IMG/VR virus record: IMGVR_UViG_3300006919_000420
Location: 1 to 24,503 of that record
Length of the DNA stretch: 24,503 nucleotides
From: a virus
Reading direction: 5' to 3' (one strand)
Positions 1 through 17,197 of the stretch are shown piece after piece. The translations under genes and the position numbers were made by a program. The notes under the pieces were generated by a model that saw nothing but the letters and a program-made list of their open reading frames with translations, did not search any database and had not been told where the DNA came from. How positions within the stretch are numbered: the stretch's first letter is position 1; each line of letters opens with the position of its first letter.

Positions 1-548
1 CCGTTAAGGCAATCGACGATGCTCACACCCGTTTAAATACGGCTGTTCTCTTGGAGAACCAAGAGAGATGGTGCCTTGAAGAGTCTAGCTCTGTAGGCGG
101 CGGTTCACTTGGTGGCGCTGCACAAGGTGGAGTTCAGTTCAACCCAGCTTCTCAGATTCACTCAGGTGATACATATGCACCTGCTGATGCACGACTTCCA
201 AAGGTCCTCATTCCGATGATCCGTCGTACATTCCCTGAGCTTATCACTAACGACATCGTTGGTGTTCAGCCAATGAGCGGCCCAGTTGGTCTTGCATTTG
301 CTCTTCGTTATGCTTACCAGTCTACATCACTTGGTGACGGTACCGATGGTGCTTCTTCACAAGGTGGAGCTGGTGGTTCTGTACCTGGTTACACTGGTGC
401 TGCAGGCCTTCCAAACGACGAACTTGGTTATCAGCTTCTTGATACCCGCTTTACTGGTACATCTGCTGGTTCTACTCAGCTTTCTGGTGCTGGTTCCGGT
501 TACTGGGAGTTTGCTAACGGTGATAAGGGCGTTGCACAAATCCTCTAG
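1..548 (+). CDS. 23: Major capsid protein gp23, N-terminal part (5' partial, broken)
   Basis: This is the main shell protein of a T4-type head. The frame is open from base 3 to the TAG at 546-548, and the true start lies left of the window. Family landmarks are the TAVLLENQE stretch (bases about 42-66), the PKVLIPMIRRTFPELITND segment, and VGVQPMSGPVGLAFALRYAY, which matches the T4 gp23 pattern DIVGVQPM.xPVGxIFALR. A Gly/Ser-rich stretch follows (about bases 331-510). The reading frame ends prematurely inside the conserved domain, and the homology continues in the +1 frame from about base 541. Codon use is richer in G+C than the genes to the right, as expected for a very highly expressed gene. 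The TTG codon at 51 is internal (Leu of LLENQ), not a start. Identification as gp23 is secure; whether the break is real is not known. Confidence 0.9.
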   Translation, partial: VKAIDDAHTRLNTAVLLENQERWCLEESSSVGGGSLGGAAQGGVQFNPASQIHSGDTYAPADARLPKVLIPMIRRTFPELITNDIVGVQPMSGPVGLAFALRYAYQSTSLGDGTDGASSQGGAGGSVPGYTGAAGLPNDELGYQLLDTRFTGTSAGSTQLSGAGSGYWEFANGDKGVAQIL

Positions 549-555
549 CTTTTGA
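540..555 (+). other. Frameshift and in-frame stop inside gp23
   Basis: Upstream the gp23 frame reads G-V-A-Q and then runs to TAG at 546. Downstream the homologous frame is shifted by +1 and begins at about 541 (TCC TCT AGC TTT) but immediately meets TGA at 553-555 before continuing D-T-G-D-I-P-Q. The smallest repair is removal of one A from the AAA at 538-540 plus one base change in the TGA. A combination of small indels around AGCTTTTGAG would also restore it. Two lesions in 16 bases of an otherwise well-conserved essential gene point to an assembly or sequencing error or a chimeric join more than to a natural pseudogene. Confidence 0.85.
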
Positions 556-1389
556 GATACCGGTGATATTCCACAGGTTGAAGTTAAGTTCGAAAAGACA
601 GCAGTTGAGGCCGGTACACGCCGCCTTGGTGCTCGTTGGTCAGTCGAGCTTGAGCAAGACCTCAAGAACATGAACGGTATCGACATTGACGCTGAGATCA
701 CAAATGCAATGAGCTACGAGATCCAAGCTGAAATCGACCGTGAGATGCTTATGCGCATGATTCAGTCTGCTCTTACAGCTGGATACGGTCCTGGTTTCTC
801 AGTTTGGTCACCTGCTTCTGCAGATGGTCGCTGGCTCGTTGAGCGTAACCGTGACTTCTATCAGCGTTTGATCGTTGAGGCTAACCGCATTGCTGTACGT
901 AACCGTCGTGGTGCTGCTAACTTCATCGTTGCTACTCCACGTGTTTGCGCTATCCTTGAGATGCTTCCTGAGTTCCAGTGGGTCCCAGTTGCTGGTGACG
1001 TCAATACTCAGCCAGTAGGTATCGGTAAGGTTGGTTCACTTGGTGGACGTTTCAACGTTTATCGTGACACTCGTACAGAGGCTATGTACAACACAGGTTA
1101 CGGCCAGACCATCGGTAACGGTGCTGGTAGCGGTACATCTGGTGTTGAGTACGCACTTCTTGGATATAAGGGACCTGAGTTCTATGACACAGGTATCATT
1201 TACTGCCCATACATCCCAGTTATGGTACAGCGTACAATCGGACCTAACGACTTCGCACCACGCGTAGGCTTGCTTACACGTTACGGAGTTGTTGATAACA
1301 TCTTTGGTGCTAATCTTTACTACCACGTTGTTATCGTTCAGGGTCTCGGTTCTGAGTTCACTCCTGGTTCATCTTCAGTTTACTTTTAA
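556..1389 (+). CDS. 23: Major capsid protein gp23, C-terminal part (separated by frameshift and TGA)
   Basis: This is the continuation of the capsid protein. After the TGA at 553-555 the frame is open to the TAA at 1387-1389. It carries the gp23 landmarks in order: VEVKFEKTAVEAGTRRLGAR, WSVELEQDLKNMNGID, the helix EIQAEIDREMLMRMI, RRGAANFIVATPRV, and the C-terminal block GYKGPEFYDTGIIYCPYIPV followed by NDFAPRVGLLTRYGVV. Each corresponds to a segment of T4 gp23 (for example LELAQDLK, GYKGPNEMDAGIYYAPYV and FKTRYGI). The first ATG is at 670, but homologous coding sequence clearly begins upstream at about 541, so 670 is not a natural start. Joined with the upstream part, the visible protein is about 460 residues, close to a full T4-type capsid protein lacking its extreme N-terminus. 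A UUCG-loop terminator follows 35 bases later. Confidence 0.9.
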   Translation, partial: DTGDIPQVEVKFEKTAVEAGTRRLGARWSVELEQDLKNMNGIDIDAEITNAMSYEIQAEIDREMLMRMIQSALTAGYGPGFSVWSPASADGRWLVERNRDFYQRLIVEANRIAVRNRRGAANFIVATPRVCAILEMLPEFQWVPVAGDVNTQPVGIGKVGSLGGRFNVYRDTRTEAMYNTGYGQTIGNGAGSGTSGVEYALLGYKGPEFYDTGIIYCPYIPVMVQRTIGPNDFAPRVGLLTRYGVVDNIFGANLYYHVVIVQGLGSEFTPGSSSVYF

Positions 1390-1423: not shown

Positions 1424-1453
1424 AGACGGGGTCTTCGGGCCCCGTCTTTTTTT
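1424..1453 (+). terminator. Intrinsic terminator after gp23, UUCG tetraloop
   Basis: AGACGGGG at 1424-1431 pairs with CCCCGTCT at 1440-1447. The stem extends inward through a T-G wobble and a C-G pair to close a TTCG loop (1434-1437), giving the very stable C(UUCG)G tetraloop. A run of seven T follows (1447-1453). It lies 35 bases after the gp23 stop and isolates the capsid gene from the next gene. Confidence 0.93.
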
Positions 1454-1498: not shown

Positions 1499-1909
1499 AT
1501 GGCTACACAAACATTTAACGCGGGTGTATATCAATTATCAGCAACTAAAACAATCAATAGAAGCTTATCCTTATCAGGAGCTAATGATGAAGTTGTTTTA
1601 AAAGCATCTGGTACAGTTGATCCAGCATCCAGTGAATTAACATTTGGATTACTTTATGACGATCCAGGAGCAGGCGGGTATGGACCAGCATTAAGTGCAA
1701 AAGCTCTTTCTATTTCTGGTGGTACAAATACAACATTTAACACCAGTCTTACAGCTGCAAATACAAAGTATGCAATTGTAGACATTCACGGTAGTACAAT
1801 CACATTTACTCAAACTGCGTGGGGTAATACAACATTGTTCCCGGATACTTCTGGTGGAGCAAATGCTGTAGGACCTGAGCATCGCCGTAAGTACTTGCTT
1901 GGTTACTAA
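1499..1909 (+). CDS. Probable virion structural protein, 136 aa, function unknown
   Basis: I do not recognise a named family. The protein starts MATQTFNAGVYQLSATKT, has no signal peptide or membrane segment, and is rich in Ser, Thr, Gly, Ala and Val in alternating polar/hydrophobic stretches (SGTVDPASSELTFGLLYDD, KALSISGGTNTTFNTSL), which suggests an all-beta fold. The C-terminus is basic and aromatic (EHRRKYLLGY). It stands alone between two strong terminators directly downstream of gp23, so it is probably a strongly expressed monocistronic late gene. That position and composition fit a small head decoration or other virion surface protein, but this is inference from context only. The start at 1499 follows an AT-rich late-promoter-like box and has no visible Shine-Dalgarno sequence. 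Confidence 0.75.
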   Translation: MATQTFNAGVYQLSATKTINRSLSLSGANDEVVLKASGTVDPASSELTFGLLYDDPGAGGYGPALSAKALSISGGTNTTFNTSLTAANTKYAIVDIHGSTITFTQTAWGNTTLFPDTSGGANAVGPEHRRKYLLGY

Positions 1910-1933
1910 TTAATATACACTATAAAGCTTAAG

Positions 1934-1963
1934 AAAGCCGGTCATATATGACCGGCTTTTTTT
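1934..1963 (+). terminator. Intrinsic terminator, perfect 26-nt palindrome
   Basis: Bases 1934-1959 are a perfect inverted repeat whose outer arms read AAAGCCGGTC and GACCGGCTTT around an ATA/TAT centre, followed by seven T (1957-1963). It starts 25 bases after the stop of the 136-aa gene. It has only a weak T-run on the opposite strand, so it works mainly for plus-strand transcription. Confidence 0.9.
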
Positions 1964-2031: not shown

Positions 2032-2850
2032 ATGGAAATCTTTATGAATTGCTCTATGCCACGAGCTGGTTCAACTTTATTACAGAATATCTTAGCGCAG
2101 AACCCAGACTTCTACTGCACACCCACTTCCGGTATTATGGATTTCATGGTAGATGTGAGAAGAAATTTTACTACTAACCCGGCAATTCAAGCTCAAGATG
2201 AAGATGAGATGAAAAAGGCATTTCAATCATTTTGCAAGAAAGGGTTATATGGATATTTTGAAGCTTTAACAGATAAAAAATATGTAGTAGATAAAAATAG
2301 AGAGTGGTGCTCTTTTTTTAATTTTGCAAAATTTATTCTTGAGAAGCCACCAAAAATGATCGGAATGGTTAGACATTTACCACAGGTCTTCGCTTCTTTA
2401 GAATTAAAATATAGGAATACTTCACATAAAGATTCCGGGGTTGTAGAACGTGAAAGTTTTGTTAATACAACAACGGAAAAGCGTGCAGAGTTTTTTGCAG
2501 GAACAAGACCGTTAGGTACTGCATTAGAGAGAATGTATGAAGTAACTATGCAAGGCCTTCATAAGGAAATGCTCTTTATACGGTATGAGGACCTATGTAT
2601 GTATCCACGTGAAATAATGGAAGAGGTTTATGCATATTTAGAGATACCTAGTTATGAGCATAATTTTAGCTTTATCGAGCAATTGACAAATGAGAACGAT
2701 ACTTTTCACGGCATATTAGCTGATCATAAAATACGCCCTATGTTAGAATATACAGATAACAACCCAGTAGAAATACTAGGTCAAAGCACCATTGCCTGGA
2801 TTCAGAATCAATATAAATGGTACTATGAGGTATTTGGTTATAATATGTAA
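2032..2850 (+). CDS. Sulfotransferase-family protein
   Basis: Members of this family move a sulfuryl group from PAPS to a hydroxyl or amine acceptor, often a glycan. From the ATG at 2032 the protein has 272 residues. The 5'-phosphosulfate loop is clear at residues 8-17 (SMPRAGSTLL). A second conserved segment, MVRHLPQVFASLE (about 112-124), gives the Arg and Ser that normally hold the 3'-phosphate, and DKNREW (87-92) and FIRYEDLCMYP (182-192) are further family landmarks. Length is typical for bacterial and viral Sulfotransfer_3-type enzymes. An in-frame ATG at 2011 would add seven residues; AAAGG touches that ATG with no spacing, so I prefer 2032, which places the P-loop near the N-terminus as usual. 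The acceptor cannot be deduced. Its position next to the adhesin block suggests a glycan or virion component. It converges on the minus-strand fibre gene with zero intergenic bases. Confidence 0.88.
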   Translation: MEIFMNCSMPRAGSTLLQNILAQNPDFYCTPTSGIMDFMVDVRRNFTTNPAIQAQDEDEMKKAFQSFCKKGLYGYFEALTDKKYVVDKNREWCSFFNFAKFILEKPPKMIGMVRHLPQVFASLELKYRNTSHKDSGVVERESFVNTTTEKRAEFFAGTRPLGTALERMYEVTMQGLHKEMLFIRYEDLCMYPREIMEEVYAYLEIPSYEHNFSFIEQLTNENDTFHGILADHKIRPMLEYTDNNPVEILGQSTIAWIQNQYKWYYEVFGYNM

Positions 2851-5421
2851 TTACGTTTCAAGTGCTTCTATTCTAGATTTAAGATCATCTATAATACCTT
2901 GTTGCTCTTGAACAGCTTTAACTAGTACTGGGATAACATAATCGCTAGTATAAGTAAACTTATCTCCTGTATTATCGATAATAACGTTATCCTCACCTTC
3001 AACTTCGAGAACGTCTTGAGCAAGGAAACCATAACGTTTTGGCCCGTAAGGTACAGATGAATTCTTTTCTTTAGTGTATCTAAACTCTTTCGGCTTAAGG
3101 TCTCCGATAAACTCAAGACCTTTTGTAATATCATTAATGCATGTCTTATAACGGCAATCAGAAAGTGATGACCAAGTACCGCCGGCAACATAGTTTGCTG
3201 TCATAGCAGTGTTACCTATAACAACCGTATTAGAACCGCAACTAATAGCTTCACATCCAATAACAATACTATTTTGATCGTTATTGGTTAATGAACGAGC
3301 ACGACGTCCGATGTAAATACCGTAATCGGATGATGTATTCTGACCAGTACCAGTACCGCAATGTGAACCAGCATCAACTCCAATACCAACGTTTTGCGAT
3401 CCACTGTTATAGCAAAGTGCATCTGCACCAATACCTACGTTAGATGCTGATGTAGTTCCTATACGAAGAGCTCCACATCCAATAGCAACGTTACAACTAC
3501 CTGTTGTATTCTGTCGTAATGCAGCAGAACCGATAGCCATGTTAGATGCACCAGTGGTGTTCGTATGCAATGTACAGTAACCGAATGCAACGTTATAGTT
3601 ACCACGGTTATCAGTCATGGTCTCATAACCAATAGCGATGTTACCAATCATAGCTCCACTATTAACCACACTAGAACCTCTTAATGCTCTTATACCAGCT
3701 GCAAAGTTATAACTACCGGTAGCTATACACGAACCAGCATCATGTCCAAAGGCAATGTTATAACCTGCAGTAGTTATACTCTTACCTGCCCAATAACCTA
3801 TACCTATGTTACCTGAACCGGATGATCTACAACCTAAAGCGCAGAAACCAATTCCAGAGTTATAACTACCGGTACCTGTATTAACACTATTGGTACTTGC
3901 AGTATAACCAATACCAACGTTATAGCTTCCTGATGTAGAACCACAACCTGCAGAATATCCAAGATATGTATTACCTGTACCAGTATTAAGTCTACCTGCA
4001 TAATCACCTATACCAATATTACCGCTGGTAGAAGTTTGTGTGCATAAAGTACTTCTGCCTATTGCAACACTACCAGTTCCTGTTGTAATAGCAGCGCCAG
4101 CATTAGCACCTAATGTTGTATTATAATAAGTTTCTTCAAAAACACATTGACCGGTTGTTGCGCAAAGGTTACCTGTACAAGTTGTCTTAGCATTCCAAGC
4201 AGAATTACATGTACTATCAACACCTACTGTATCAGCAGCTACTGTAATGGCTGTCCCTGCTCCAACGTTAACAGTTACGCTTCCGGAAGTGCCTCCACCT
4301 GTCAAACCATTACCAGCAGTTACACCGGTAATATCTCCTACGCATGTAAGACCAGCACAAGTAGATAAAGAGGCAGTTGTTGTATAAGCACTGTTCCATG
4401 TAGTGTTGCATGTTGAATTAATTGCAACATCATCTGCATTAACAGTAATACCCGTTCCAGCTCCAACAGCGAGTGAACCTGTTGTTGTAACGGATCCTGT
4501 AAGACCATTGCCACCTGTTACAGATGTAACAGTACCAGTACATGTTGTTTTAGCATTCCAAGCATCATTACATGTCGTGCTTACACCTACCGTTGTTGCG
4601 CCAACAGTAATAGCAGTACCAGCTCCTACTGTTAGAGTAGCGGTACCACTAGTAGCACCTCCTGTTAGACCGTTACCAGCTGTTACACCTGTAATATCAC
4701 CAACGCAAGTGAGACCTGCGCAAGTAGATAAAGCAGCTGTTGTTGTATAAGCACTGTTCCATGTAGTATTACATGTACTGTTAATTGAAAGCGTACCAGA
4801 TGTTGTAATTGTACCACCGGTTAAGCCTGTCCCGGTACCAACGCTCGTCACGGTACCAGTACATGTTGTTTTAGCATTCCATGTTGAGTTACAAGTAGAA
4901 TCAACACCTACAGTATCAGCAGCTACTGTAATAGCCGTACCTGCTCCAACGTTTAATGTAGCAGCTCCGGAAGTTGCTCCTCCTGTTAATCCGTTACCAG
5001 CTGTAACCGCTGTAATATCTCCTACGCAATTAATACCAGCGCAACCGCTTTGATCCCAAGATCCGGAATTAGATTGTACAGTTGTAGCTGTGCCATTCCA
5101 GCGTGCATTACAAGTTGAGTTGATAGCTACATCATTCGCATTTACAGTGATACCGGTACCAGCTCCTACAGCAAGAGCACCAGATGTTGTAACACCACCG
5201 GTAAGTCCAGCTCCACCATCAACGCAAGTGACGGTTCCAGTACAAGCTGTAGCGCCACATGCAATACCATCAAGTTTAGAACCATCAGCAGATACATCTC
5301 TACCATCAACGGTGCAAGATGCATTCATAAGTATATTAGTACCTACAGTGATGCAATCATTACTCTCATACGTATCAGAAGTATGCGTTAGTTGTCTTTG
5401 TGTTCCTGTTACAGTTGCCAT
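2851..5421 (-). CDS. Tail fibre with YadA-head-like repeats and C-terminal Peptidase_S74 chaperone domain
   Basis: An 856-aa trimeric fibre protein. Residues 1-430 alternate two Gly/Thr-rich modules, one around CTGTVTSVTGGNGLTG and one around CVGDITGVTAGNGLTGG, linked by STCNxxWN. Residues about 430-745 are short repeats of the N-V-G-I-G / AIG-ALxxNTTG type, as in YadA heads and many phage fibres. The C-terminus is an intramolecular chaperone of the Peptidase_S74 (endosialidase-type) family: the SDCRYK motif gives the Ser754/Lys759 pair that normally cuts the chaperone off after trimerisation, followed by KPKEFRYT, YGFLAQDV and a final coiled coil (about 832-856). I count about 36 cysteines, unusual for a fibre. 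It is the last gene of the minus-strand block, starting 4 bases after the stop of the 579-aa gene. The chaperone makes it a strong candidate for a distal receptor-binding fibre. Confidence 0.9.
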   Translation of the reverse strand: MATVTGTQRQLTHTSDTYESNDCITVGTNILMNASCTVDGRDVSADGSKLDGIACGATACTGTVTCVDGGAGLTGGVTTSGALAVGAGTGITVNANDVAINSTCNARWNGTATTVQSNSGSWDQSGCAGINCVGDITAVTAGNGLTGGATSGAATLNVGAGTAITVAADTVGVDSTCNSTWNAKTTCTGTVTSVGTGTGLTGGTITTSGTLSINSTCNTTWNSAYTTTAALSTCAGLTCVGDITGVTAGNGLTGGATSGTATLTVGAGTAITVGATTVGVSTTCNDAWNAKTTCTGTVTSVTGGNGLTGSVTTTGSLAVGAGTGITVNADDVAINSTCNTTWNSAYTTTASLSTCAGLTCVGDITGVTAGNGLTGGGTSGSVTVNVGAGTAITVAADTVGVDSTCNSAWNAKTTCTGNLCATTGQCVFEETYYNTTLGANAGAAITTGTGSVAIGRSTLCTQTSTSGNIGIGDYAGRLNTGTGNTYLGYSAGCGSTSGSYNVGIGYTASTNSVNTGTGSYNSGIGFCALGCRSSGSGNIGIGYWAGKSITTAGYNIAFGHDAGSCIATGSYNFAAGIRALRGSSVVNSGAMIGNIAIGYETMTDNRGNYNVAFGYCTLHTNTTGASNMAIGSAALRQNTTGSCNVAIGCGALRIGTTSASNVGIGADALCYNSGSQNVGIGVDAGSHCGTGTGQNTSSDYGIYIGRRARSLTNNDQNSIVIGCEAISCGSNTVVIGNTAMTANYVAGGTWSSLSDCRYKTCINDITKGLEFIGDLKPKEFRYTKEKNSSVPYGPKRYGFLAQDVLEVEGEDNVIIDNTGDKFTYTSDYVIPVLVKAVQEQQGIIDDLKSRIEALET
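4190..4873 (-). repeat. Imperfect module repeats in the 856-aa fibre gene
   Basis: The anchor GCATTCCA (plus strand; encodes the WNA of the STCNxxWNAKTTCTG linker) occurs at 4190, 4553 and 4874, giving units of 363 and 321 bases (121 and 107 codons). Both units keep the alternating CTGTVT and CVGDIT modules and the same Cys positions. The unequal length shows that modules differ by in-frame insertions and deletions. Confidence 0.75.
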
Positions 5422-5425
5422 AATA

Positions 5426-7165
5426 TTAGTGTCTTAATCGTTTTCTGTTGACTTTATATTTAATGTTGGAGTCTTTAGCTGACTCATACATAGTTCCATA
5501 ATATACCGTTAATCCTCCCGCATCTATCCCTCTATAATACGGAGCTTTATCTGGTTGACCAGAAGCAGATAATTTTACCCTTAGTTGATAACCAGTACTT
5601 GAAAAGGTATGAACATCGTCACTATCTTTATCGTATGTTTCCCATGATGTTCCATTATTATTTGAAACATAAGCTGTTACAGAGCACGATGAGGGTATGC
5701 TAAAATTGTTTAATCCCGGTATAGATACTTGGTCAACATTTGCGTTATTAGTTAAAGTAAATGTCCCAAAAACAACTTCCCAGTTTCCAACCAATTGATT
5801 TGGGTATTTGTTTTCAGCCCAAGTCATAAACAAATGACCATCACTTCCACCATATCCCATTTGAACCCAATATTTAGTTCCATTTGCGGACTCCATAAGA
5901 ACCATAGGACAACTATATCCATGGTTAAAGCTTCTTCCTCTACCACCGGTTGAGGTATCTTCGACATAATTATAAGGGTACTCCATTCCAACAAACTTTA
6001 AATTTGTTGTATCGAGCCAAGAACCATTTCTACCTCTATCTCTATCAGCACTTAAGTGAATGTAGTTTGGATAACCTGGCATTTTATCCATTGGCACACC
6101 ACTCGTTTTTTGGTATTTCGTACCTAATCTCCATATTGAATCATATGTGTAATTATTACTTGGATATATTCTATTATATCTTGTAGGAGCTGATCCACTA
6201 AAACATGGTGTAATGTCAATATCTACAAATCTATTTGAAGCACCTACCCACATTCTGTTAGGACTGTTCACAGGATCGGGAATAAATAGACCCATATCGT
6301 ATGAGTCATCCCCGTCTCCCATATCAGCAATATCACACCAAACGAGTTCTGGTGTTGCGGTACTAGCATCTAGTACTAGAATGAAGTTTCCATTATTGTA
6401 AGAGAAATAAAATACCCTATCATTGATTTCATCATAGTGGAGAGAGTAACGGTATCCGTCACGGTCAATGGTGGCACTCCCGCTGTAGAGATCTCCTGTC
6501 CCAGAACTGTTACCAATAACTTCTTCTGTACCTGTATTTAAATTTCTTCTAACAACTCTTCTATAATGACGAGCGTCATACTCCCCAACATAAATCCACT
6601 CACCAGCAGCTACCATACCAGATTGATAATATAACCCTGCACTTGAAATATTTAAACCTTCTGCCTGAATAAATCTCTGAGGGTTAGAGTGCGAAGGTCT
6701 TGCGTCTTTAACAAAAGTTGTTCCTCCATTTACACAACCGCTATAGTCAAATGTCGTGTAACCATCGACATTATAGGACATCACAACACCAAGTTTATTT
6801 GTAGTGTCGATAGCAATATTGTGCATATGGTTATATGTGTTGCTAGTATTATTATATAAGAAGTAATTATCGTGATAAATTTTAGTGAGTGTACCATCAT
6901 TATTCAAACGACGAACTGCAAATCCATCACCCCAACCAGTAGTAAATAAAAGATCTCCATCAATCTCATAAGCACTTGGAAACCCGATAACGCGATCACC
7001 GCCATCATAATCACCGGAACCACTCCTGACAACTACATTTGAAACACCGCCCTTGTAAACTGGATAAATGCCTATGTTGTAGTTATAAGGGTGATCAGTA
7101 ACAGTAGCTCCAACAATAGATATCACGTTACTTCTAGTTAATGTAGATCCTTTTAATTTACTCAT
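5426..7165 (-). CDS. Probable tail adhesin, beta-propeller-like, 579 aa
   Basis: I do not recognise a named family. The protein is all-beta in character, with aromatic and Gly-rich short strands repeated along its length (GDLLFTTGWGDGFAVRRLNN, GEWIYVGEYDARHYRRVVRR, DRVFYFSYNNGNFILVLD, LVWCDIADMGDGDD). This resembles read-outs of repeated propeller blades. No signal peptide or membrane segment is seen. The last ~110 residues (from about PNQLVGNWEVVFGTFTL) read like a separate beta-sandwich with an ethanol-like W-x-Y segment (NNGTSWETYDKDSDDVHTFS), and the tail is basic (KYKVNRKRLRH). It overlaps the upstream 52-aa gene by 8 bases, has a good Shine-Dalgarno (AGAGGAG at 7173-7179), and precedes the S74 fibre by 4 bases. 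Context suggests a fibre-associated or receptor-binding protein. The gene call is strong; the function is an inference. Confidence 0.8.
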   Translation of the reverse strand: MSKLKGSTLTRSNVISIVGATVTDHPYNYNIGIYPVYKGGVSNVVVRSGSGDYDGGDRVIGFPSAYEIDGDLLFTTGWGDGFAVRRLNNDGTLTKIYHDNYFLYNNTSNTYNHMHNIAIDTTNKLGVVMSYNVDGYTTFDYSGCVNGGTTFVKDARPSHSNPQRFIQAEGLNISSAGLYYQSGMVAAGEWIYVGEYDARHYRRVVRRNLNTGTEEVIGNSSGTGDLYSGSATIDRDGYRYSLHYDEINDRVFYFSYNNGNFILVLDASTATPELVWCDIADMGDGDDSYDMGLFIPDPVNSPNRMWVGASNRFVDIDITPCFSGSAPTRYNRIYPSNNYTYDSIWRLGTKYQKTSGVPMDKMPGYPNYIHLSADRDRGRNGSWLDTTNLKFVGMEYPYNYVEDTSTGGRGRSFNHGYSCPMVLMESANGTKYWVQMGYGGSDGHLFMTWAENKYPNQLVGNWEVVFGTFTLTNNANVDQVSIPGLNNFSIPSSCSVTAYVSNNNGTSWETYDKDSDDVHTFSSTGYQLRVKLSASGQPDKAPYYRGIDAGGLTVYYGTMYESAKDSNIKYKVNRKRLRH

Positions 7166-10454: not shown

Positions 10455-11150
10455 CTAACGAATAAACCTGGATTTCGTGTGATTATAGTGCTGAAGCACC
10501 TCAGTGTCGGATAATGCTCTATCATAGATACTCGCTGACATAATACTACCGTTCAATTGGTGTATTGGCGTTAATGCATTATTAGGTCCTCCACCTATAT
10601 AGATACCTTGACTAGACGTTCTAATAGTATAGTTAAATGCTTGGCTGTTAACTAATTTACCATTGAAATAAAACTTCATAGTATGAGAATTAGAGCCAGT
10701 TGATTGTAAAACAATCCCAAAATAATTCCAACCAGAAAATGTCCCAACAGTATACTCAACATCTTGCCTATTATCAGACTCTTGCACCCATGATTCCCAT
10801 CTAATTCTATTATTAGCATTAATCATTAATGCGTATGTCTCCTCGTTTCCATACCTTGTTCTAATCAAAGTATCCGTATTACCATTTGTTGCTGTTTTAT
10901 TTGCCCAAGAAAAAACGGATATATTTTGCGTTAGTAACTCTCCATTGTGATCATCAAACCAAATCCAATCTCCATCACTAGCAAAAGTAAATCCCTCACT
11001 TGTTACTGACGCATTACCAGCTAAAGAACCATCCACCTCTTGTATCAAATCTTTGCATGTAGAACCGCTAGTGTAACATCTAGGATGTTTCGCGTGGATG
11101 TGAAAAATCAAACCATCTGTAATAATATCTGAATGTACATGTGCACTCAT
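10455..11150 (-). CDS. ConA-like/LamG-domain protein, short form, last of the array (231 aa)
   Basis: A single concanavalin-A-like jelly-roll domain of the Laminin_G_3 type, a fold that usually binds glycans. The array's N-terminal signature is degenerate here: IITDGLIFHIHAKHPRCY replaces the usual DGLVLxLDAxxPKSY, and the D-R-S-G-N segment is lost (STCKDLIQEVDGS). The core is recognisable: a strand segment NISVFSWANK, then GWNYFGIVLQ, then MKFYFNGKLV and IYIGGG..LNGSIMSASIYDRALSDTEVLQHYN. The C-terminal tag has changed from SRFGL to SRFIR. It is the distal and most diverged copy, starting inside the stop of the previous gene (ATGA overlap). It may be a decaying or specialised member. Confidence 0.82.
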   Translation of the reverse strand: MSAHVHSDIITDGLIFHIHAKHPRCYTSGSTCKDLIQEVDGSLAGNASVTSEGFTFASDGDWIWFDDHNGELLTQNISVFSWANKTATNGNTDTLIRTRYGNEETYALMINANNRIRWESWVQESDNRQDVEYTVGTFSGWNYFGIVLQSTGSNSHTMKFYFNGKLVNSQAFNYTIRTSSQGIYIGGGPNNALTPIHQLNGSIMSASIYDRALSDTEVLQHYNHTKSRFIR

Positions 11151-11863
11151 ATACCAAACTTTCCTTTCGTTGCGTTGTAGTTGTGAAGGATTTCATCATC
11201 ATCTAGCATTTTATTATAGCACAAAACAGAACCAATTGCTCCTACCGCTACTGTCCCAGCATAGCCAGTTCCTATAGTAATTTGACCAGCCGATACTAAA
11301 GCTGTATCTGATCTACTGGTATAATTTGCTGCCCAAGCAGAACCATTTAAACTTCTAAAACCTGTTCTAGCTGTTGCTGTTCTACCAGTTGACATTTTAA
11401 TTGCCATCATGTTCCATTTGTCCACCGCGGCATTATAAGAACTACCACTATCATAATTAGGAGAATGGCGAGAATAGTAACTCCAATTTGTGCCAACCTC
11501 CCAAGTTACTGCGATTTCCTGCCTATAAGAACTGTTTCCTATTCCAGCTTTTTCAAAGATAGTTCTTCTAGAAGGGACCGTCTCACCATATAACCAAATA
11601 ATCAAAGTGCAATCACCGCCCATATCTACTTTATCACTTTGAGATGTACCACCCTGGGATCCCCACCGTCCAGAACCATTAAATTCAAAACACCTAATAC
11701 CGTCTCTTGTAGATAGCGGTGTTTGTGTACCAATAGATGCAAACTCTATACCATTTGCTGCATCTATCCATGTAGAGCCACCTGAGTAACACTTGGGGTT
11801 AGATACATCTAAACATAAAGAAAGACTATCTGTTATTATTTTCGGTTGATATTCTGTACCCAT
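11147..11863 (-). CDS. ConA-like/LamG-domain protein, short form (238 aa)
   Basis: A one-domain member of the tandem adhesin array. It opens with YQPKIITDSLSLCLDVSNPK, a variant of the PKIVTDGLVLxLDA signature, followed by STWIDAANG where most copies have STWxDRSGN. The FDGTDDY core strand is replaced by FEFNGSGRWG. The domain's middle strands (CTLIIWLYGE, WNMMAIKMSTGR) and last strands (GQITIGTGYAGTVAVGAIGS) are present. It ends with EILHNYNATKGKFGI. The start is 2 bases after the stop of the upstream long copy, and its stop overlaps the next start (ATGA). Probably a virion-associated glycan binder; the ligand is unknown. Confidence 0.85.
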   Translation of the reverse strand: MGTEYQPKIITDSLSLCLDVSNPKCYSGGSTWIDAANGIEFASIGTQTPLSTRDGIRCFEFNGSGRWGSQGGTSQSDKVDMGGDCTLIIWLYGETVPSRRTIFEKAGIGNSSYRQEIAVTWEVGTNWSYYSRHSPNYDSGSSYNAAVDKWNMMAIKMSTGRTATARTGFRSLNGSAWAANYTSRSDTALVSAGQITIGTGYAGTVAVGAIGSVLCYNKMLDDDEILHNYNATKGKFGI

Positions 11864-11865
11864 AA

Positions 11866-13059
11866 TTATGAAAATCTACTTCTTGTTGCTCGATAGTTTT
11901 GGAGGACTTCTTTTGCTGTGAGAGCTCTGTTATAAATTCTCATAATATTGATATCACCCTTCCAATACTCAGAGTTAACCCTATAACCTATTAATAGATT
12001 ATTAGCATTCGTCCAATCTAAATTCCCCATTGTTGCTGTTACTGTTTGTATTCCGTTTTTGTACATTATTGCAGAAGTACCAGCATGTGTAATAGTAAAA
12101 TGCGCCCAAGTATCAGATTCTATAGCGTCATCATCATACATTGTATACCACTGACTTCCATTATGGGCCTGATACATTAATCGACCATTACTTGTGCCTT
12201 TTCTTAATTGAAAAACAGCATTACTAGTTCCGGTTTTATCGTAATGCATTACCTTTCTATCATTACTATCTAACGATCCATTAAATTTAATCCAACAATC
12301 TAATGTTATATCAGTAGGGGTTCCCATATCGAAAGATCCAGTACTAACATAATCATCTGTACCATCAAAAGTCATTTGCGCATTACTATCAAATGATACA
12401 TCAGATAGATCAATCGTTGTATTACCGGTACGGTCTATCAAACTTTCTGTGGCTGATCTTGTACCGTTTATAAATGGAGTAGCGTGTGATTTTTGTTCTA
12501 TCTGAATACCTCCAAAATATATAAACCCTGCACTGTTGAGTGTGAGTTGTGGAAAGTAATTTGTACCTGTCAATGTAGAGGAATATTCTATGGCATAATA
12601 GCCATTTTCTTCTGCTCGAACCCTATAAAACTCCCCACTTGCTAAGGTAACACCTGTAACTGCTCCAGTGTTAAGATTTACAGTTAAATTTGTTCGATTT
12701 CCAGTATGCGCTCCTCCCCAACTGACATATACACTTGAAATGCTTCCAGCTTTTAGATACCATGTCGTAGTAAACTGCACTCCAGATGCTTCACCTTCAA
12801 CAGCACCTGTGTATGCGATCCAGTTTGATACATCTGTACTTGGTCGTGTAATTGTGGATGCATTATATCCGCCGGTAAAATTTAAAGTAGTACCTGATGC
12901 GGTTTCCATTCCAGTACCTTTAGAGTATCCTGACGATAAGTTGAAGGGTTGTGAAACTACATTAGTAGTGGGTTCACCCTTATACGACTTACCATCTCCA
13001 GTATCATACTTAAATACTAACCCATCTTGAACAATATCTGGACCTGCATTTGAACTCAT
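11866..13059 (-). CDS. CBM-like plus ConA-like/LamG protein, long form (397 aa)
   Basis: A two-domain member of the array. After the signature GLVFKYDTGDGKSYKGEPTT the LamG domain is interrupted by about 150 residues that look like a carbohydrate-binding-module jelly roll (from VVSQPFNLSSGYSKGTG to IYFGGIQIEQKSHATPF). The shared linker GTRSATESLIDRTGN follows, then the rest of the LamG domain: QMTFDGTDDYVSTG, ITLDCWIKFNG, WAHFTITHAGTSAIMYKNG, NLLIGYRVNSEYWKGDINIM. It ends VLQNYRATRSRFS, a shortened form of the terminal tag. Its ATG lies inside the stop of the preceding long copy (ATGA), and it is followed by a 2-base gap. Confidence 0.85.
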   Translation of the reverse strand: MSSNAGPDIVQDGLVFKYDTGDGKSYKGEPTTNVVSQPFNLSSGYSKGTGMETASGTTLNFTGGYNASTITRPSTDVSNWIAYTGAVEGEASGVQFTTTWYLKAGSISSVYVSWGGAHTGNRTNLTVNLNTGAVTGVTLASGEFYRVRAEENGYYAIEYSSTLTGTNYFPQLTLNSAGFIYFGGIQIEQKSHATPFINGTRSATESLIDRTGNTTIDLSDVSFDSNAQMTFDGTDDYVSTGSFDMGTPTDITLDCWIKFNGSLDSNDRKVMHYDKTGTSNAVFQLRKGTSNGRLMYQAHNGSQWYTMYDDDAIESDTWAHFTITHAGTSAIMYKNGIQTVTATMGNLDWTNANNLLIGYRVNSEYWKGDINIMRIYNRALTAKEVLQNYRATRSRFS

Positions 13060-14312
13060 ATTCCGAACCTCCCTCTAATTGCGTTAAAGTTTTGAGATAT
13101 TTCATCTGCTGTTAAAGTTCTATTATAAATTCTAGCAAGATAAATTTTTCCATCGAAATAGTAGGAATTATTCGTCCTACTGCCTAATTTAACTGTTTGT
13201 GATGTACTTAAATTTACAGATGATATTGTTGAAGCAGTATCAAATAATTCACCGTTTTTGTAAGCTTTAGAGTATGATAAATTCTGCGCTGTAAAAACTA
13301 CATGATTAATTCCAGAGGTAATTATATTAGCAGCATCTAATACTGAATTATTGGGGTAATCGTAAGGTATAAATCGCAAAGTATTGTTATTGGCTGTATG
13401 TATCTCTAATTGCTCGTAATTACCTGCAATTAAAAATCCGATACTACTTGTATCTATATCATCCCATTCAAAAATAACTTCTAATGAAAAATTATTATCT
13501 GCCATAGTGACAGTGCCGCAATCTAAATAATCATCCGTACCATCAAAAGCAATTTGCGCATTATCATCAAATGATGCGTTTGATACATCTATATCAATTG
13601 TTCTAGTTAGATCTATAAGTGAGTCTGTTGCTGATCTAGTACCACCTAATATAAAAGGAGTTGCATGGCTTCTTTGTTCAACTTGATAATCTCTCCAATA
13701 AGAATCTGCATTAATAGAAGTACCAACACACTGACATCTTATTACATTGAGAGAGGTATTACCTGCTCCTGCGGGAATTGTCACGGATAATCTTTCCCAA
13801 TCACCTCCTCCGGTGTGATAACTACTTCCATATCCCCAATAACTTGAACCGTCTTTAGTAGTATTAAGATGTATTCTAGCCATAGAAGCTTGGTCAGTTT
13901 TACACCATACTGAAACTGTATAATCTTTATCTTGATCTATAGATCCCGGAGCTGTTCCGGAAAAATTACTTTCACTATTACCACCAGCTCTTTTTTTCAT
14001 TTTCCATGCGCCTTTGAATCCTGGACCTTCTTCGTTAGGCATCCACTCCATTCCCCCATCAGAACTTATATTAGAATTTGGATAATAGGACCAGTCCCAT
14101 ACCGTTCCATGTAAATTACTATGGTAAGCAGAATTACTAATAAAATAAGTATTGGGATTAGTAGGAACCATAGTACCAATATCAAATGTAGTGGTTGGCT
14201 CTCCTTTATTATATTTGTATGATTGATGACTTTTTGATACTAGAGGATATCCAGTATCAAAGCCAAATACTAAACCTTTAGCTACTATTTTTGGTGAATG
14301 AGATAGTGCCAT
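13056..14312 (-). CDS. CBM-like plus ConA-like/LamG protein, long form (418 aa)
   Basis: The longest of the nine array members. The N-terminal signature is SPKIVAKGLVFGFDTGYP, and a spacer (VSKSHQSYKYN) precedes GEPTTTFDIG. The inserted domain (about residues 50-210) has CBM-type strands: YTVSVWCKTDQASMARIHLN and WERLSVTIPAGAGNTSLNVI. The linker GGTRSATDSLIDLTRTIDID is less conserved than in the other long copies. The LamG core follows: QIAFDGTDDYLDCG, FSLEVIFEWDD, HVVFTAQNLSYSKAYKNGEL, VKLGSRTNNSYYFDGKIYLA. It ends ISQNFNAIRGRFGI. Start and stop overlap the neighbouring genes by 1 and 4 bases, so translation is probably coupled along the array. Confidence 0.85.
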   Translation of the reverse strand: MALSHSPKIVAKGLVFGFDTGYPLVSKSHQSYKYNKGEPTTTFDIGTMVPTNPNTYFISNSAYHSNLHGTVWDWSYYPNSNISSDGGMEWMPNEEGPGFKGAWKMKKRAGGNSESNFSGTAPGSIDQDKDYTVSVWCKTDQASMARIHLNTTKDGSSYWGYGSSYHTGGGDWERLSVTIPAGAGNTSLNVIRCQCVGTSINADSYWRDYQVEQRSHATPFILGGTRSATDSLIDLTRTIDIDVSNASFDDNAQIAFDGTDDYLDCGTVTMADNNFSLEVIFEWDDIDTSSIGFLIAGNYEQLEIHTANNNTLRFIPYDYPNNSVLDAANIITSGINHVVFTAQNLSYSKAYKNGELFDTASTISSVNLSTSQTVKLGSRTNNSYYFDGKIYLARIYNRTLTADEISQNFNAIRGRFGI

Positions 14313-14992
14313 TATATTCCGAATCTACCCCTTTGGGCGTTAAAGTTTTGAAGGATTTCATCTTGAGATAGTTCTTTATTGTATATAAGGATATTACCTA
14401 CCTCAGCTCCGAAATAAGAAGATCCTGCTCCGAAAAAATAATTAAAAGTTATATCATCTCCTCCCGTCCATCCAGCATTTCCGTTTGAGAAACTTTTTGC
14501 TGCTCCATTTTTACTGGAAAAACTATAAGAGTCTGCAGTGCTTCCAAAATGAAAGATAGTAAATCCAGAGCTGTCTAAAGTCGTAGTTTTGCTTGAACTT
14601 GATGTATTTATGTTATCTTTAAAACCAAATGTATTTCCTGTTGTACCATAGTAACCGAATTCATACTTATGACTATCATTAGCTACCTCTACAAACCAAT
14701 AATTCCAACTACTACTAGATTGTGAATCATTAATATTAATAGCCATCATAACTGTAAACCCTACCGCTGGGACAGTTACATTTCCATCTAAAGTAATAGA
14801 ATCATCAGTACCGTCAAAAGAAAAGGTTTTACTTGCTGAGTTATATGTTGCACCATTTATAGTTCCGGTTAATCCGTTACCACTTCTATCAATCCAGGTG
14901 CTACCACTACCAGGGTACGATTTAGGATCTCCCGCATCTAAACAGAGAACCAATCCATCAGTTATGATATTATTGTTATAATTTGTAGCCAT
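14312..14992 (-). CDS. ConA-like/LamG-domain protein, short form (226 aa)
   Basis: This is the smallest copy and close to the minimal form of the array domain. It has NNNIITDGLVLCLDAGDPK, then STWIDRSGNGLTGTINGA, then KTFSFDGTDDSITLDG, which are the classic N-terminal strands of Laminin_G_3 proteins in phages. The central strands are shortened and Ser-rich (INTSSSSKTTTLDSSG). The usual W-Y/N-V-K-NG strand is replaced by FTIFHFGSTADSYSFSSKNG. It ends EILQNFNAQRGRFGI. Its stop TAA and the next ATG share one base, and the same arrangement occurs at its own start. The short inserts suggest different loop lengths and so a different ligand from its neighbours. Confidence 0.85.
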   Translation of the reverse strand: MATNYNNNIITDGLVLCLDAGDPKSYPGSGSTWIDRSGNGLTGTINGATYNSASKTFSFDGTDDSITLDGNVTVPAVGFTVMMAININDSQSSSSWNYWFVEVANDSHKYEFGYYGTTGNTFGFKDNINTSSSSKTTTLDSSGFTIFHFGSTADSYSFSSKNGAAKSFSNGNAGWTGGDDITFNYFFGAGSSYFGAEVGNILIYNKELSQDEILQNFNAQRGRFGI

Positions 14993-15696
14993 TATAATCC
15001 GAATCTAGATTTAGTTGCGTTGTAGTTTTGAGCCACTTCATCTGCTGTTAAAGCCTTATCGTATATTCTTTTCGTGGCAAGCACCCCGTCTACTTGCCTT
15101 GGGATATTTATTCTACCCCTCCCAAACCATCGAACCTTTAAACCTGAATAATCTGCATTCCATTCATACGTTGTGTGATCACCACCTTCCGCTACACCAT
15201 TAAGATACATTTGATATGATGTTCCAGAATCCTCACAAACTAAAACCGCATTATACCATGTGTCTGCTTGAATGGTGGTACTACCATACTTCCAAACTCC
15301 AGGTACCCTATTCCAAAGAGCTAATTTATAGTTAAGAACTGACCAATACCAACTATTATATGCTATACCTTCCGATCCTATAAAATTAGCCGGTGATGTA
15401 GTGTTGTTATAACTCCCAGCGACATTATCATATTTTACCCAACTATCAACCGTCCAACCACCACTCGTTTTAATTGTAATATCAGAACCTAAATCAATAC
15501 AATCATCTGTACCGTCTACCTCTATACTTTTAACTGCTGAATTAAATGCAGCGCCATTTGCTAATGTTCCATTATAACCACTACCACTCCTATCATACCA
15601 AGTTGTACCACTACCGGGATACGATTTAGGGTCAAAAGCATCTAAGCTTAAGACTAATCCGTCAGTTACAATCTTTGGATGGTGAGCTAATCCCAT
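14992..15696 (-). CDS. ConA-like/LamG-domain protein, short form (234 aa)
   Basis: A textbook member of the array: HHPKIVTDGLVLSLDAFDPK, TTWYDRSGSGYNGTLANGA, IEVDGTDDCIDLGSDI, WTVDSWVKYDN, WYNAVLVCEDSGTSYQMYLNG and a C-terminal KRIYDKALTADEVAQNYNATKSRFGL (split here as two family motifs). The last 14 residues are nearly identical to those of the 17194-17934 copy. It starts 5 bases after the stop of the inserted 85-aa gene instead of inside another LamG stop, so it has lost the usual coupled junction on that side. It is likely a virion-surface lectin-like protein. Confidence 0.88.
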   Translation of the reverse strand: MGLAHHPKIVTDGLVLSLDAFDPKSYPGSGTTWYDRSGSGYNGTLANGAAFNSAVKSIEVDGTDDCIDLGSDITIKTSGGWTVDSWVKYDNVAGSYNNTTSPANFIGSEGIAYNSWYWSVLNYKLALWNRVPGVWKYGSTTIQADTWYNAVLVCEDSGTSYQMYLNGVAEGGDHTTYEWNADYSGLKVRWFGRGRINIPRQVDGVLATKRIYDKALTADEVAQNYNATKSRFGL

Positions 15697-15701
15697 AACC
15701 T

Positions 15702-15959
15702 TTATGGCATATCGTTACCTGATGGAGCCCAGGTAGCTGTACTTAAAATGTCTAATATCTCTGAATGTGTGTATGGTCCATCTGTACTAGAAAGAGCATC
15801 AACGGAAGATGGAATAATCTCGCCATCCCATTTAACAAATGTAAGGGTCTCATCAACAGACTTTCTCACTGTATCAGCAGATGTCTCTAATACCTGATCG
15901 AAATTTACATCACCAATTTCAGCGACTTCAAATATCATATATCTTCTGTTCTCGAACAT
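15702..15959 (-). CDS. Small protein, 85 aa, inserted in the LamG array
   Basis: This protein is not related to the genes around it. It begins MFENRRYMIFEVAEIGDVNF and continues QVLETSADTVRKSVDETLTF, VKWDGEIIPSS, and a C-terminal GPYTHSEILDILSTATW. It is acidic, has no Cys, signal peptide or membrane segment, and looks like a small alpha/beta soluble protein. My impression is that similar short conserved proteins occur near structural genes of T4-like marine phages, but I cannot name a family. It has its own AT-rich box 5 bases before the ATG, whereas LamG genes rely on overlaps. It is followed 5 bases later by the next LamG gene. A fibre-assembly or capping role is possible but unsupported. 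Confidence 0.75.
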   Translation of the reverse strand: MFENRRYMIFEVAEIGDVNFDQVLETSADTVRKSVDETLTFVKWDGEIIPSSVDALSSTDGPYTHSEILDILSTATWAPSGNDMP

Positions 15960-15964
15960 ATATA

Positions 15965-15972
15965 TATTTAAT
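15965..15972 (-). promoter_or_regulatory. AT box ATTAAATA before the 85-aa gene
   Basis: On the minus strand ATTAAATA is followed by five bases (TATAT) and then the ATG at 15959. Spacing matches that of the boxes before the 1499 and 2032 genes. It lies in the 35-base gap at the only place where the overlapping LamG chain is interrupted. It may restart transcription within the array. Confidence 0.4.
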
Positions 15973-15993
15973 CTATAAATCTAGTATCTCAAC

Positions 15994-15996
15994 ATT
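15994..15996 (-). other. Vestigial overlapping start codon at interrupted array junction
   Basis: The stop of the 400-aa gene is embedded in TAATG, the same 1-base overlap used at other array junctions, but this ATG runs only M-L-R-Y before TAG. The next real gene starts 35 bases further on. It looks like a remnant of a former coupled LamG start, lost when the 85-aa gene arrived or when a copy was deleted. Chance occurrence cannot be excluded. Confidence 0.4.
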
Positions 15997-17197
15997 ATAA
16001 ACCGAAACGACTTTTAAGAGCGTTGTAGGTTTGGAGAACTTCTGCATCAGTAAGAGATTTATCATGAATAGTAACACGATCAATCTTCCCATTATAAAAT
16101 GCACTTGTCCAGTTTCTACCTATAACATCACATGGACCACCATTTGTAGTATAGGAATTAAAAGTATCTGAATCTGCCACTCCATTAACATACATTTTCA
16201 TAGTACCATCAGAGGCTGAAGCTCCTTCATAATTTACCCAAGTCAACATATACCAATTATAAATAGACATTGTAGTATTACCATCATGAGTTTGCCAAGC
16301 ACCATCATAATTTCTATAATGTATTTTTCCACCATTAAAACCAAAAGCGTTTGTAACAGGGCCTCCACTTGAATTAGACATTACATTATAACCACTAACT
16401 ACATCTGGATTTACCCAAGCATTTAAAGTCCAATCTCCATTACCAAAAGTGTGAGTTGGAATAGAGATATAATCATCAGTACCATCAAAATACTTTTGTG
16501 CGTTACTGTCATAAGACATGTTTGCTAGAGTGATTGTTTTATTACCAGTACGGTCTATTAATCCTTGTGTGGTTGATCTTGTTCCGCTTACAAATGGAGT
16601 AGCATGTGGTTTTTGTTCTACTTGCACTCGTCTTACTTTATACTCCATTAAGCCTCTCCCAGTCCAAGCTGGATATACTGCTAATAAGAACGTGTTACCA
16701 CTTCCTGTATACCATCCTGTCTGTAAGGTATAAATATAACGTGTCCAGCCATTACCAAGGTCTACTGTTGAAGTGGTTGATCCATTATTTGTCAAAGGTT
16801 TTTCATCATAAGTGGTATCATCAACTGTAGTGCCTCTACCATAAAAAATAATACTATAGTCATTTTCTGGATTAATCCAAATATCAATAGATATAGTAGT
16901 TTGTTTAGACGTGTCAATTGTATAGAATGAGGATTGTACTAATCTATCTTGACCTCCGTTTGATGTTTTATTTGCCTTTTTATGGAAATAATTATATCCA
17001 TTCTCAGAAGATACTTCTGTAATGTCGACATCTGCATTGCTAGTTGACGTAGAACTCCACCCTGTAAGACCTGTTGAAAAATCTGGATTGGTTACTAAGT
17101 TCGTAGTAGGCTCTCCTGGATACGATTTTTTGTTATTAACATCGTACAAAAATACTAAACCGTCTTCTATAATATTTGGATTTCCGTGTGCGCTCAT
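15995..17197 (-). CDS. CBM-like plus ConA-like/LamG protein, long form (400 aa)
   Basis: This copy gives the clearest view of the inserted domain. NLVTNPDFSTGLTGW after GEPTT is the typical opening of a CBM_4_9-type carbohydrate-binding jelly roll. The insert goes on with QTTISIDIWINPENDYSIIF and NGWTRYIYTLQTGW and ends at VQVEQKPHATPF. The linker GTRSTTQGLIDRTGNK leads back into the LamG core: QKYFDGTDDYISIP, WTLNAWVNPD, WYMLTWVNYEG, MKMYVNGVADSD, CDVIGRNWTSAFYNGKIDRV. It ends VLQTYNALKSRFGL. Its start overlaps the stop of the 17194 gene by 4 bases. Its own stop retains a TAATG overlap, but that ATG opens only four codons. Confidence 0.87.
   Translation of the reverse strand: MSAHGNPNIIEDGLVFLYDVNNKKSYPGEPTTNLVTNPDFSTGLTGWSSTSTSNADVDITEVSSENGYNYFHKKANKTSNGGQDRLVQSSFYTIDTSKQTTISIDIWINPENDYSIIFYGRGTTVDDTTYDEKPLTNNGSTTSTVDLGNGWTRYIYTLQTGWYTGSGNTFLLAVYPAWTGRGLMEYKVRRVQVEQKPHATPFVSGTRSTTQGLIDRTGNKTITLANMSYDSNAQKYFDGTDDYISIPTHTFGNGDWTLNAWVNPDVVSGYNVMSNSSGGPVTNAFGFNGGKIHYRNYDGAWQTHDGNTTMSIYNWYMLTWVNYEGASASDGTMKMYVNGVADSDTFNSYTTNGGPCDVIGRNWTSAFYNGKIDRVTIHDKSLTDAEVLQTYNALKSRFGL

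Follow-up and report, generated by a model that had tools for sequence, protein, structure and literature searches.

The window, by which we mean the whole stretch of DNA analysed here, is an IMG/VR fragment of 24,503 bases. It begins with the gene of the major capsid protein gp23, which is followed by a 136-aa ORF, a sulfotransferase (ST) gene and, on the opposite strand, an S74-type fibre gene; the stop codons of the ST and fibre genes touch at 2850/2851 (Table 1). The first-pass annotation had placed the ST gene among virion genes, and the capsid gene upstream and the convergent fibre gene downstream bear this out. The second piece of the gp23 gene matches 2482 phage records, all at less than 60% identity; among the 12 matches listed ten are cyanophages or marine viruses (31-37%) and two are Stenotrophomonas phages. 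The gp23 frame is interrupted by stops near 546-555, which reflect either an assembly error or a genuine break. The 136-aa ORF matches neither a Pfam nor a PHROG family, and a search of the phage collection at E 0.01 gave no hit. Downstream of ST the opposite strand carries fibre, lectin-like and repeat genes. A series of similar-looking adhesin genes occupies positions 10455-19097 (minus strand), with a LamG/ConA-like domain in two Pfam-tested members; judged by letters, most of these proteins share a similar C-terminal tail, N(F/Y)NA...RF.

Table 1. Features of the ST gene and of its surroundings in the window
Feature	Position	Strand	Evidence
Major capsid protein gp23, in two frames	3..1389	+	PF07068 1.7e-16 and 2.5e-51
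Terminator-like hairpin after gp23	1424..1447	+	Hairpin search
136-aa ORF between gp23 and ST	1499..1909	+	No family found; hairpin of its own
Terminator-like hairpin before ST	1931..1962	+	Hairpin search
ST gene	2032..2850	+	272 aa; reading frame open from ATG 2011; profile, alignment, model
5'-phosphosulfate binding loop P10-L17 (PRAGSTLL)	2059..2082	+	P10 50/50, R11 48/50, G13 49/50 rows
DKNREW motif D87-W92	2290..2307	+	R90, W92 50/50; D87 49/50; K88 47/50 rows
3'-phosphate binding segment R114...S122	2371..2397	+	Both 50/50 rows
His232, putative catalytic residue	2725..2727	+	50/50 rows
S74-chaperone tail-spike-like fibre gene with repeats	2851..5421	-	PF13884 1.5e-9; phrog_4636 tail spike 1.4e-36

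The first ATG of the ST reading frame is at 2011 and the frame ends at 2850. Because the ATG at 2032 coincides in the alignment with the initial Met of the related proteins, including the starts annotated in S-SCSM1, S-SRM01 and S-SKS1, we take 2032-2850 as the correct extent of the gene. Open frame, start alignment and the matches to Pfam and phrog_27463 all agree with the earlier description of an intact ST gene at this place. The gene had also been described as AT-rich, unlike gp23. The difference exists (35.0% GC in ST, while the two pieces of gp23 have 48.5-50.5%), but the composition outlier is gp23, not ST: GC content of the minus-strand genes downstream of ST is 34-42%, and third-position GC is 30% in ST, which is closer to the 33-42% of gp23 than to the 18-28% of the downstream minus-strand genes. 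A foreign origin of ST by codon use was dropped, GC and third-position GC revealing no foreign codon signature. Terminator-like hairpins number three in the stretch against 1.0 expected, and since one of them precedes ST, the gene may form its own transcription unit. The word TATAAATA, which we take to be the T4-type late promoter consensus, occurs with at most one mismatch 66 times in the window (70 expected), not above chance. One sigma-70-like site lies at 1998-2025; the window has 9 such sites against 6.8 expected.

ST matched the Pfam families Sulfotransfer_3 (PF13469, E 3e-12, 47.7 bits against a cut-off of 27) and Sulfotransfer_1 (PF00685, E 1e-9, 38.2 bits against a cut-off of 22), as well as phrog_27463 (2e-36), a PHROG family without assigned function. 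The segments singled out by the first-pass annotation are all present: the P-loop-like SMPRAGSTLL comprises residues 8-17, KNRxW lies in DKNREW (residues 87-92), and the Arg/Ser segment is Arg114...Ser122. Conservation was assessed in a 50-row alignment of the window ST and 49 IMG/VR relatives. Seven positions (P10, S33, R90, W92, R114, S122 and H232) are identical in every row, and ten (R11, G13, S14, D87, K88, Y185, D187, P192, E221 and D223) are the same in 47 to 49 rows. A passage of PMC6637879 defines the PAPS motifs by an Arg in the 5'-phosphosulfate binding loop (5'-PSB) and an invariant Ser in the 3'-phosphate binding segment (3'-PB); R11, R114 and S122 of ST correspond to this definition. 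K88 is aligned with the Lys of the NKD motif of the tyrosylprotein sulfotransferases (TPSTs).

The AlphaFold model of ST has a pLDDT of 93.1 and a pTM of 0.90. In the VIA fold ranking human TPST1 came first (Z 20.2 over 240 residues, 3.7 Å), followed by TPST2 (Z 19.7, 239 residues), the CurM ST (Z 16.3), the olefin-synthase ST (15.8) and 3-OST-3 (14.4); SULT folds had Z 11.5-13.4 among the matches listed. The PDB profile search agrees with the fold, its best match being TPST1 (1e-15). ST is taken as cytosolic, since the chain has no segment ahead of the first strand of its fold. Comparison shows ST to be complete as a P-loop sulfotransferase, TPST-like in fold and with the PAPS-motif positions of the family kept, and the enzyme is very probably a PAPS-dependent sulfotransferase. 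Profile, alignment and fold thus back the family originally assigned. Loss of PAPS-binding residues and affinity to kinases had been named as findings that would speak against it. The residues are kept, and the profile and fold searches, which rank sulfotransferases first, rule out a P-loop kinase; the tree described below held sulfotransferase relatives only.

The position of the catalytic residue may be unorthodox. According to a passage of PMC6637879, the interval between the PAPS motifs holds an essential His or Glu. None of the His/Glu columns between the two motifs reaches 60% among the 50 ST rows. The only conserved acidic position in this interval is D87 (49/50), and the invariant H232 is situated after the second PAPS motif. 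H232 or D87 may be the catalytic residue, and the base could also be another residue. The TPST segment CGEETRVIPR faces CTPTSGIMDF of the window ST: the second Glu is opposite T32 and the two Arg are opposite G34 and F38. In TPST2 these are E99, R101 and R105, which we take to be the catalytic Glu and two acceptor-site Arg. Both features would suit a P-loop protein that has degenerated or been repurposed and lacks sulfotransferase activity. Such a protein is, however, very improbable here, given that 47 to 50 of the 50 rows keep the PAPS-motif positions and that APS-kinase genes recurrently accompany the ST relatives.

Relatives of ST were sought in several collections. A tblastn search of 50,697 phage records at E 1e-5 yielded ten matching records (23-29% identity), two each for S-SCSM1, S-SRM01 and S-SKS1 and four of marine single-cell viruses. 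S-SCSM1 and S-SKS1 infect Synechococcus WH7803. Searching viral contigs with the window ST as the only query protein returned nothing; alignment-based scans gave matches. From two such IMG/VR scans the best 80 of 199 and the best 80 of at least 484 stretches were used, some contigs occurring in both. Clade 1 consists of the window and 47 loci with at least 33% identity to it (L009-L056 without L055, which has 31.5% identity), 48 loci altogether. A scan of genome contigs detected 20 ST loci, and in 18 a long stretch matches the window at 34-45%. These come mostly from MAGs of Bacteroidota, Verrucomicrobiota and Planctomycetota, with the binning taken as given. Some genome-contig STs, for example that of L169, share about 60% identity with phage STs, and by inspection L176 (76%) and L186 resemble phage contigs. 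In two Synechococcus single-cell genomes (L179 and L180) STs with 43% and 39% identity to the window ST lie among host-like genes; the L180 gene stands beside a pair resembling MNT/HEPN by inspection. Bacterial L178 has an ST copy split over two ORFs (5995-6810), and in L050 a second, different sulfotransferase (Sulfotransfer_2, 4e-8) directly follows ST at 4179-4988.

A quick tree of 100 rows leaves out L051 and L053 as partial, L178 because its ST is divided over two ORFs, and L187 and L188 as partial or remote. In it the window is paired with L009 (SH-aLRT 98) and has a long end branch. Phage and cellular rows are interleaved in this one tree, which suggests that the ST gene has moved between phages and bacteria.

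Clade-1 ST genes are often accompanied by a set of three small genes. A short kinase is encoded by the next ORF after ST in 23 of the 48 clade-1 loci and by the second ORF in two more. Counted over all 48 loci, the window included, APS kinase was found in 25, an adenylyltransferase-like protein in 23 and DUF2061 in 25. After grouping at 90% ST identity the numbers were 13/27, 12/27 and 13/27, respectively, and the group of the window had none of them. The window fragment itself contains neither this cassette nor a GT9-like gene. The first-pass annotation had contrasted the virion genes with metabolic genes; for the ST family this opposition does not hold, as an APS-kinase gene is close by in 13 of the 27 close groups.

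Sequence features identify the kinase of the relatives (cluster 2) as a predicted APS kinase. It scored 62.6 bits (5.5e-17) in L018 and 46.5 bits in L029 against PF01583 (cut-off 21.1), and its profile match to a solved APS kinase is 9e-17. G8, Q9, P10, G13, K14, D34, G35, D36, R39, P80 and R85 are kept in 13 of 13 kinase rows, covering the P-loop and DGDxxR. The adenylyltransferase-like protein has about 130 aa and matches PF01467 (1.6e-7; CTP_transf_like, 32 bits against 21). By profile and fold it is nearest to NMN and pantetheine adenylyltransferases. The label ATP sulfurylase was rejected at the profile level, PF01747 reaching 16.6 bits, below the cut-off of 24.3. In its model, fair at best (pLDDT 70.7), the ATP sulfurylase 1v47 scored Z 6.9, a value tied with many PPAT and NMNAT rows (top rows 9.3 and 9.0). 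From its pairing and fusion with the kinase we nevertheless infer an APS-making role for this mini adenylyltransferase. The DUF2061 match in the cassette is 2e-18. Kinase, adenylyltransferase and DUF2061 probably constitute a PAPS-supply cassette.

Outside clade 1 the kinase was found in four of 58 other ST groups (L060, L062, L071 and L087). L087 has the kinase alone; in the other three it is fused to the adenylyltransferase (284-288 aa), and the fused kinase of L062 is divergent (PF01583 27.2 bits, E 4.6e-6). Whole records were searched for 32 hand-picked viral records, three of them known holders of a fused kinase, and for 10 cellular genomes. Sixteen of the viral records had the kinase (12 strong matches and 4 weak ones, one of these under the cut-off), located inside the ST locus in all except G041, where it lies about 20 kb off. 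The adenylyltransferase was present in 15 of the 32 viral records and in none of the 10 cellular genomes, DUF2061 in 11 and two, respectively. In two cellular genomes (L178 6824-7729, minus strand; G025 and G029) DUF2061 shares one frame with APS kinase, a hint that DUF2061 may serve sulfate activation.

The kinase/adenylyltransferase pair is a common viral module that is not exclusive to ST loci. This emerged from scans made without ST and limited to the best 80 of at least 587 and the best 80 of at least 553 stretches; with this limit, and with query sequences taken from cassettes linked to ST, the counts lean towards such cassettes. The partner gene was present in 79/80 and 80/80 stretches, DUF2061 in 40 and 54, and ST in 31 and 22 when 5 kb on either side was considered, for the adenylyltransferase and kinase queries, respectively. 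Among annotated phages the pair is rare, since the adenylyltransferase matched 9 records of the phage collection (four annotated as NMN adenylyltransferase, two as kinase) and the kinase four, one from Salmonella. Some of the ST-less pair loci (L207-L364) have a carbamoyltransferase, GT11 or DNA methylase nearby. By letters, 105 ST-less loci include ST-like P-loop genes of the types LPRCGST... (16) and ARTGSN... (12); the member of each type that was scanned matched no Pfam family at E 0.01.

The gene-neighbour survey proposed by the first-pass annotation thus revealed the APS-kinase cassette in 13 of 27 close groups, and it also showed that fibre-like repeat genes recur beside ST. An ORF was called repeat-rich if it had at least 150 aa and at least 8% repeated four-letter words, and if this share was also three times the shuffled value. 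With L051 and L053 (partial) left out, such an ORF was found within four genes of ST in 15 of 25 clade-1 groups and 40 of 58 others (55/83). In the control, twelve 20-kb stretches from six clade-1 records, 27 of 180 gene positions were near a repeat-rich ORF. Repeat-rich ORFs made up 26/111 of the ORFs of at least 150 aa in clade 1 and 80/326 in the others, compared with 12/145 in the control. Fisher p values for the enrichment range from 0.0012 to 3e-14, the rows not being independent. No repeat-rich ORF was present within four genes in 28 of the 83 groups, some loci ending at a contig edge. The window scored as having one within three genes of ST.

The repeat proteins beside ST differ in kind between clades. 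They are of the S74 tail-spike type in the window, L045 and L070. A YadA-head occurs in bacterial L175, and L010, L029 and L171 gave weak, sub-threshold beta-roll matches. Proteins with YGYFGGG repeats (phrog_19111), kelch-like to the eye, flank ST on both sides in L110 and, by letters, in S-SKS1. S-SRM01, and L005 by letters, have an RCC1-like repeat neighbour. In bacterial L174 and L178 a protein near ST resembles phage repeat proteins by BLAST; it has no Pfam family. The S74 domain as common acceptor was weakened by its presence in 6 of 34 records; the recurring feature is a variety of repeat proteins. Two PHROG families of repeat proteins without assigned function, phrog_19111 and phrog_27227, stand beside ST in L110 (6051-10714), L099 (2543-7261) and L014 (8820-9791).

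Genes for sugar modification also occur near ST. GT9-like genes were found in 37/48 clade-1 loci and 47/120 other loci, and two 2OG-oxygenase clusters in 17/48 and 9/48 clade-1 loci and in 6/120 and 1/120 others. A Pfam scan of 81 neighbours (80 of 94, and the window fibre) detected five GT2 and three FkbM matches among the 25 commonest families. Together with GT25, these GT9-like, GT2 and FkbM-methyltransferase genes would suit an ST that sulfates a host surface glycan or a cytosolic lipid-linked precursor, altering the receptor and masking the cell against superinfection or competing phages. In L060, L062, L071 and others of their group a GT9-like gene lies immediately 5' of ST, and within 4 kb of ST in S-SRM01 lie genes for a glycosyltransferase and a nucleotide-sugar epimerase. 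NoeE, a glycan sulfotransferase, gave a sub-threshold match to ST (E 0.0015, 17.3 bits against a 500-bit cut-off). We nevertheless consider a host-glycan target rather unlikely: in L110 and several kin the ORFs on both sides of ST encode repeat proteins, the nearest genes in the window are the 136-aa ORF and the fibre, and the ST fold is closer to TPST than to the listed glycan STs, although the fold is not decisive for the acceptor.

ST could also be an ordinary auxiliary metabolic gene acting on a small molecule, a lipid or a nucleic-acid component, adjacent to virion genes by chance. Its contexts do vary, S-SCSM1 ST being located among replication and recombination genes, and nucleotide sulfation systems have been reported in phages according to a passage of PMC10829341. 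The frequency of repeat-rich neighbours well above the control argues against this possibility, which we regard as quite improbable.

The explanation we prefer, at somewhat less than even confidence, is that cytosolic ST sulfates the phage's own fibre or its glycan. The fibre encoded at 2851..5421 would then be the candidate acceptor in the window. The earlier suggestion of a virion acceptor, made from gene location, is strengthened by the recurrence of a fibre-like neighbourhood in distant ST clades; virion glycan, host glycan and receptor are all candidate targets. The neighbourhood is an association and no proof of substrate, because fibre loci attract acquired (cargo) genes. Two observations weigh against a fibre acceptor: the direct upstream neighbour of the window ST is the 136-aa ORF, not a fibre, and the GT9-like, GT2 and FkbM genes fit a host-glycan target equally.

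If the phage's own fibre is the target, ST would bind PAPS during infection, made by the host or, where the cassette is present, by the phage. The sulfuryl group would be transferred in the cytoplasm before or during virion assembly, most likely to a repeat-built fibre or adhesin, either on a side chain or on a sugar added by a glycosyltransferase. In about half of the close groups the phage would help to make the donor through APS kinase, the adenylyltransferase-like protein (a putative ATP sulfurylase) and DUF2061; the window phage would depend on PAPS from its host, unless it has a cassette beyond the ends of the fragment. Extra negative charge would alter host binding, stability or exposure of the fibre. 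Family, fold, PAPS motifs and gene linkage are supported by comparison; we infer the activity of ST, its catalytic residue, acceptor, timing and effect. A broader proposal joins these elements into a virion-sulfation pathway of several lineages, with a compact PAPS generator (APS kinase, mini adenylyltransferase as ATP sulfurylase, DUF2061), an ST with an unorthodox catalytic residue, and adhesion fibres sulfated after or instead of glycosylation. We put it forward as possible yet doubtful.

Phage STs are already annotated in a few cyanophages. Passages of PMC10829341 and PMC8290583 mention viral STs, and one in PMC10580990 describes STs in two OM43-phage-like genomes and calls the function of phage STs unclear. 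In the open-access literature we found no paper linking phage ST, APS kinase and the virion, and none on sulfation of phage tail fibres by a sulfotransferase. New here are the probable PAPS-supply cassette in 13/27 close groups, the fibre-like neighbours across ST clades and the cellular relatives. A small sulfation pathway may operate in some phages, perhaps with their own attachment fibres as its target. If fibres are sulfated, this would add a further post-translational step to virion assembly and a new layer to host recognition. The family makes the question testable by providing the enzyme, a candidate acceptor next to it and, in many relatives, a cassette that probably makes the donor.

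Among known systems the TPSTs (human TPST1/2, tick TPST) share with the window ST the 5'-PSB loop, the Lys in NKD/DKN and the Arg and Ser eight residues apart, whereas identity is 14%. Membership in the TPST family was rejected: the fold agrees, but the acceptor-site Glu/Arg/Arg face Thr32/Gly34/Phe38. The CurM and olefin-synthase ST domains (4gbm and 4gox), which work on carrier-bound polyketides, resemble ST in fold (Z 16.3 and 15.8) and gave profile matches; unlike the window ST, 4gox has a Glu facing T32. The cyanophage STs of S-SCSM1, S-SRM01 and S-SKS1 are members of this family, with 23-27% identity along most of their length, and fall outside the 34-row tree group of the window; the BFVD model of the S-SCSM1 ST gave a TM of 0.86 on the window ST as query. 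Xanthomonas RaxST with raxP/raxQ, described in a passage of PMC6637879 as a bacterial sulfotransferase whose donor is supplied by ATP sulfurylase and APS kinase, is likened by description only to the phage STs that have the cassette. It differs in its target, the RaxX peptide precursor, and its PAPS genes are called core genes in the same passage.
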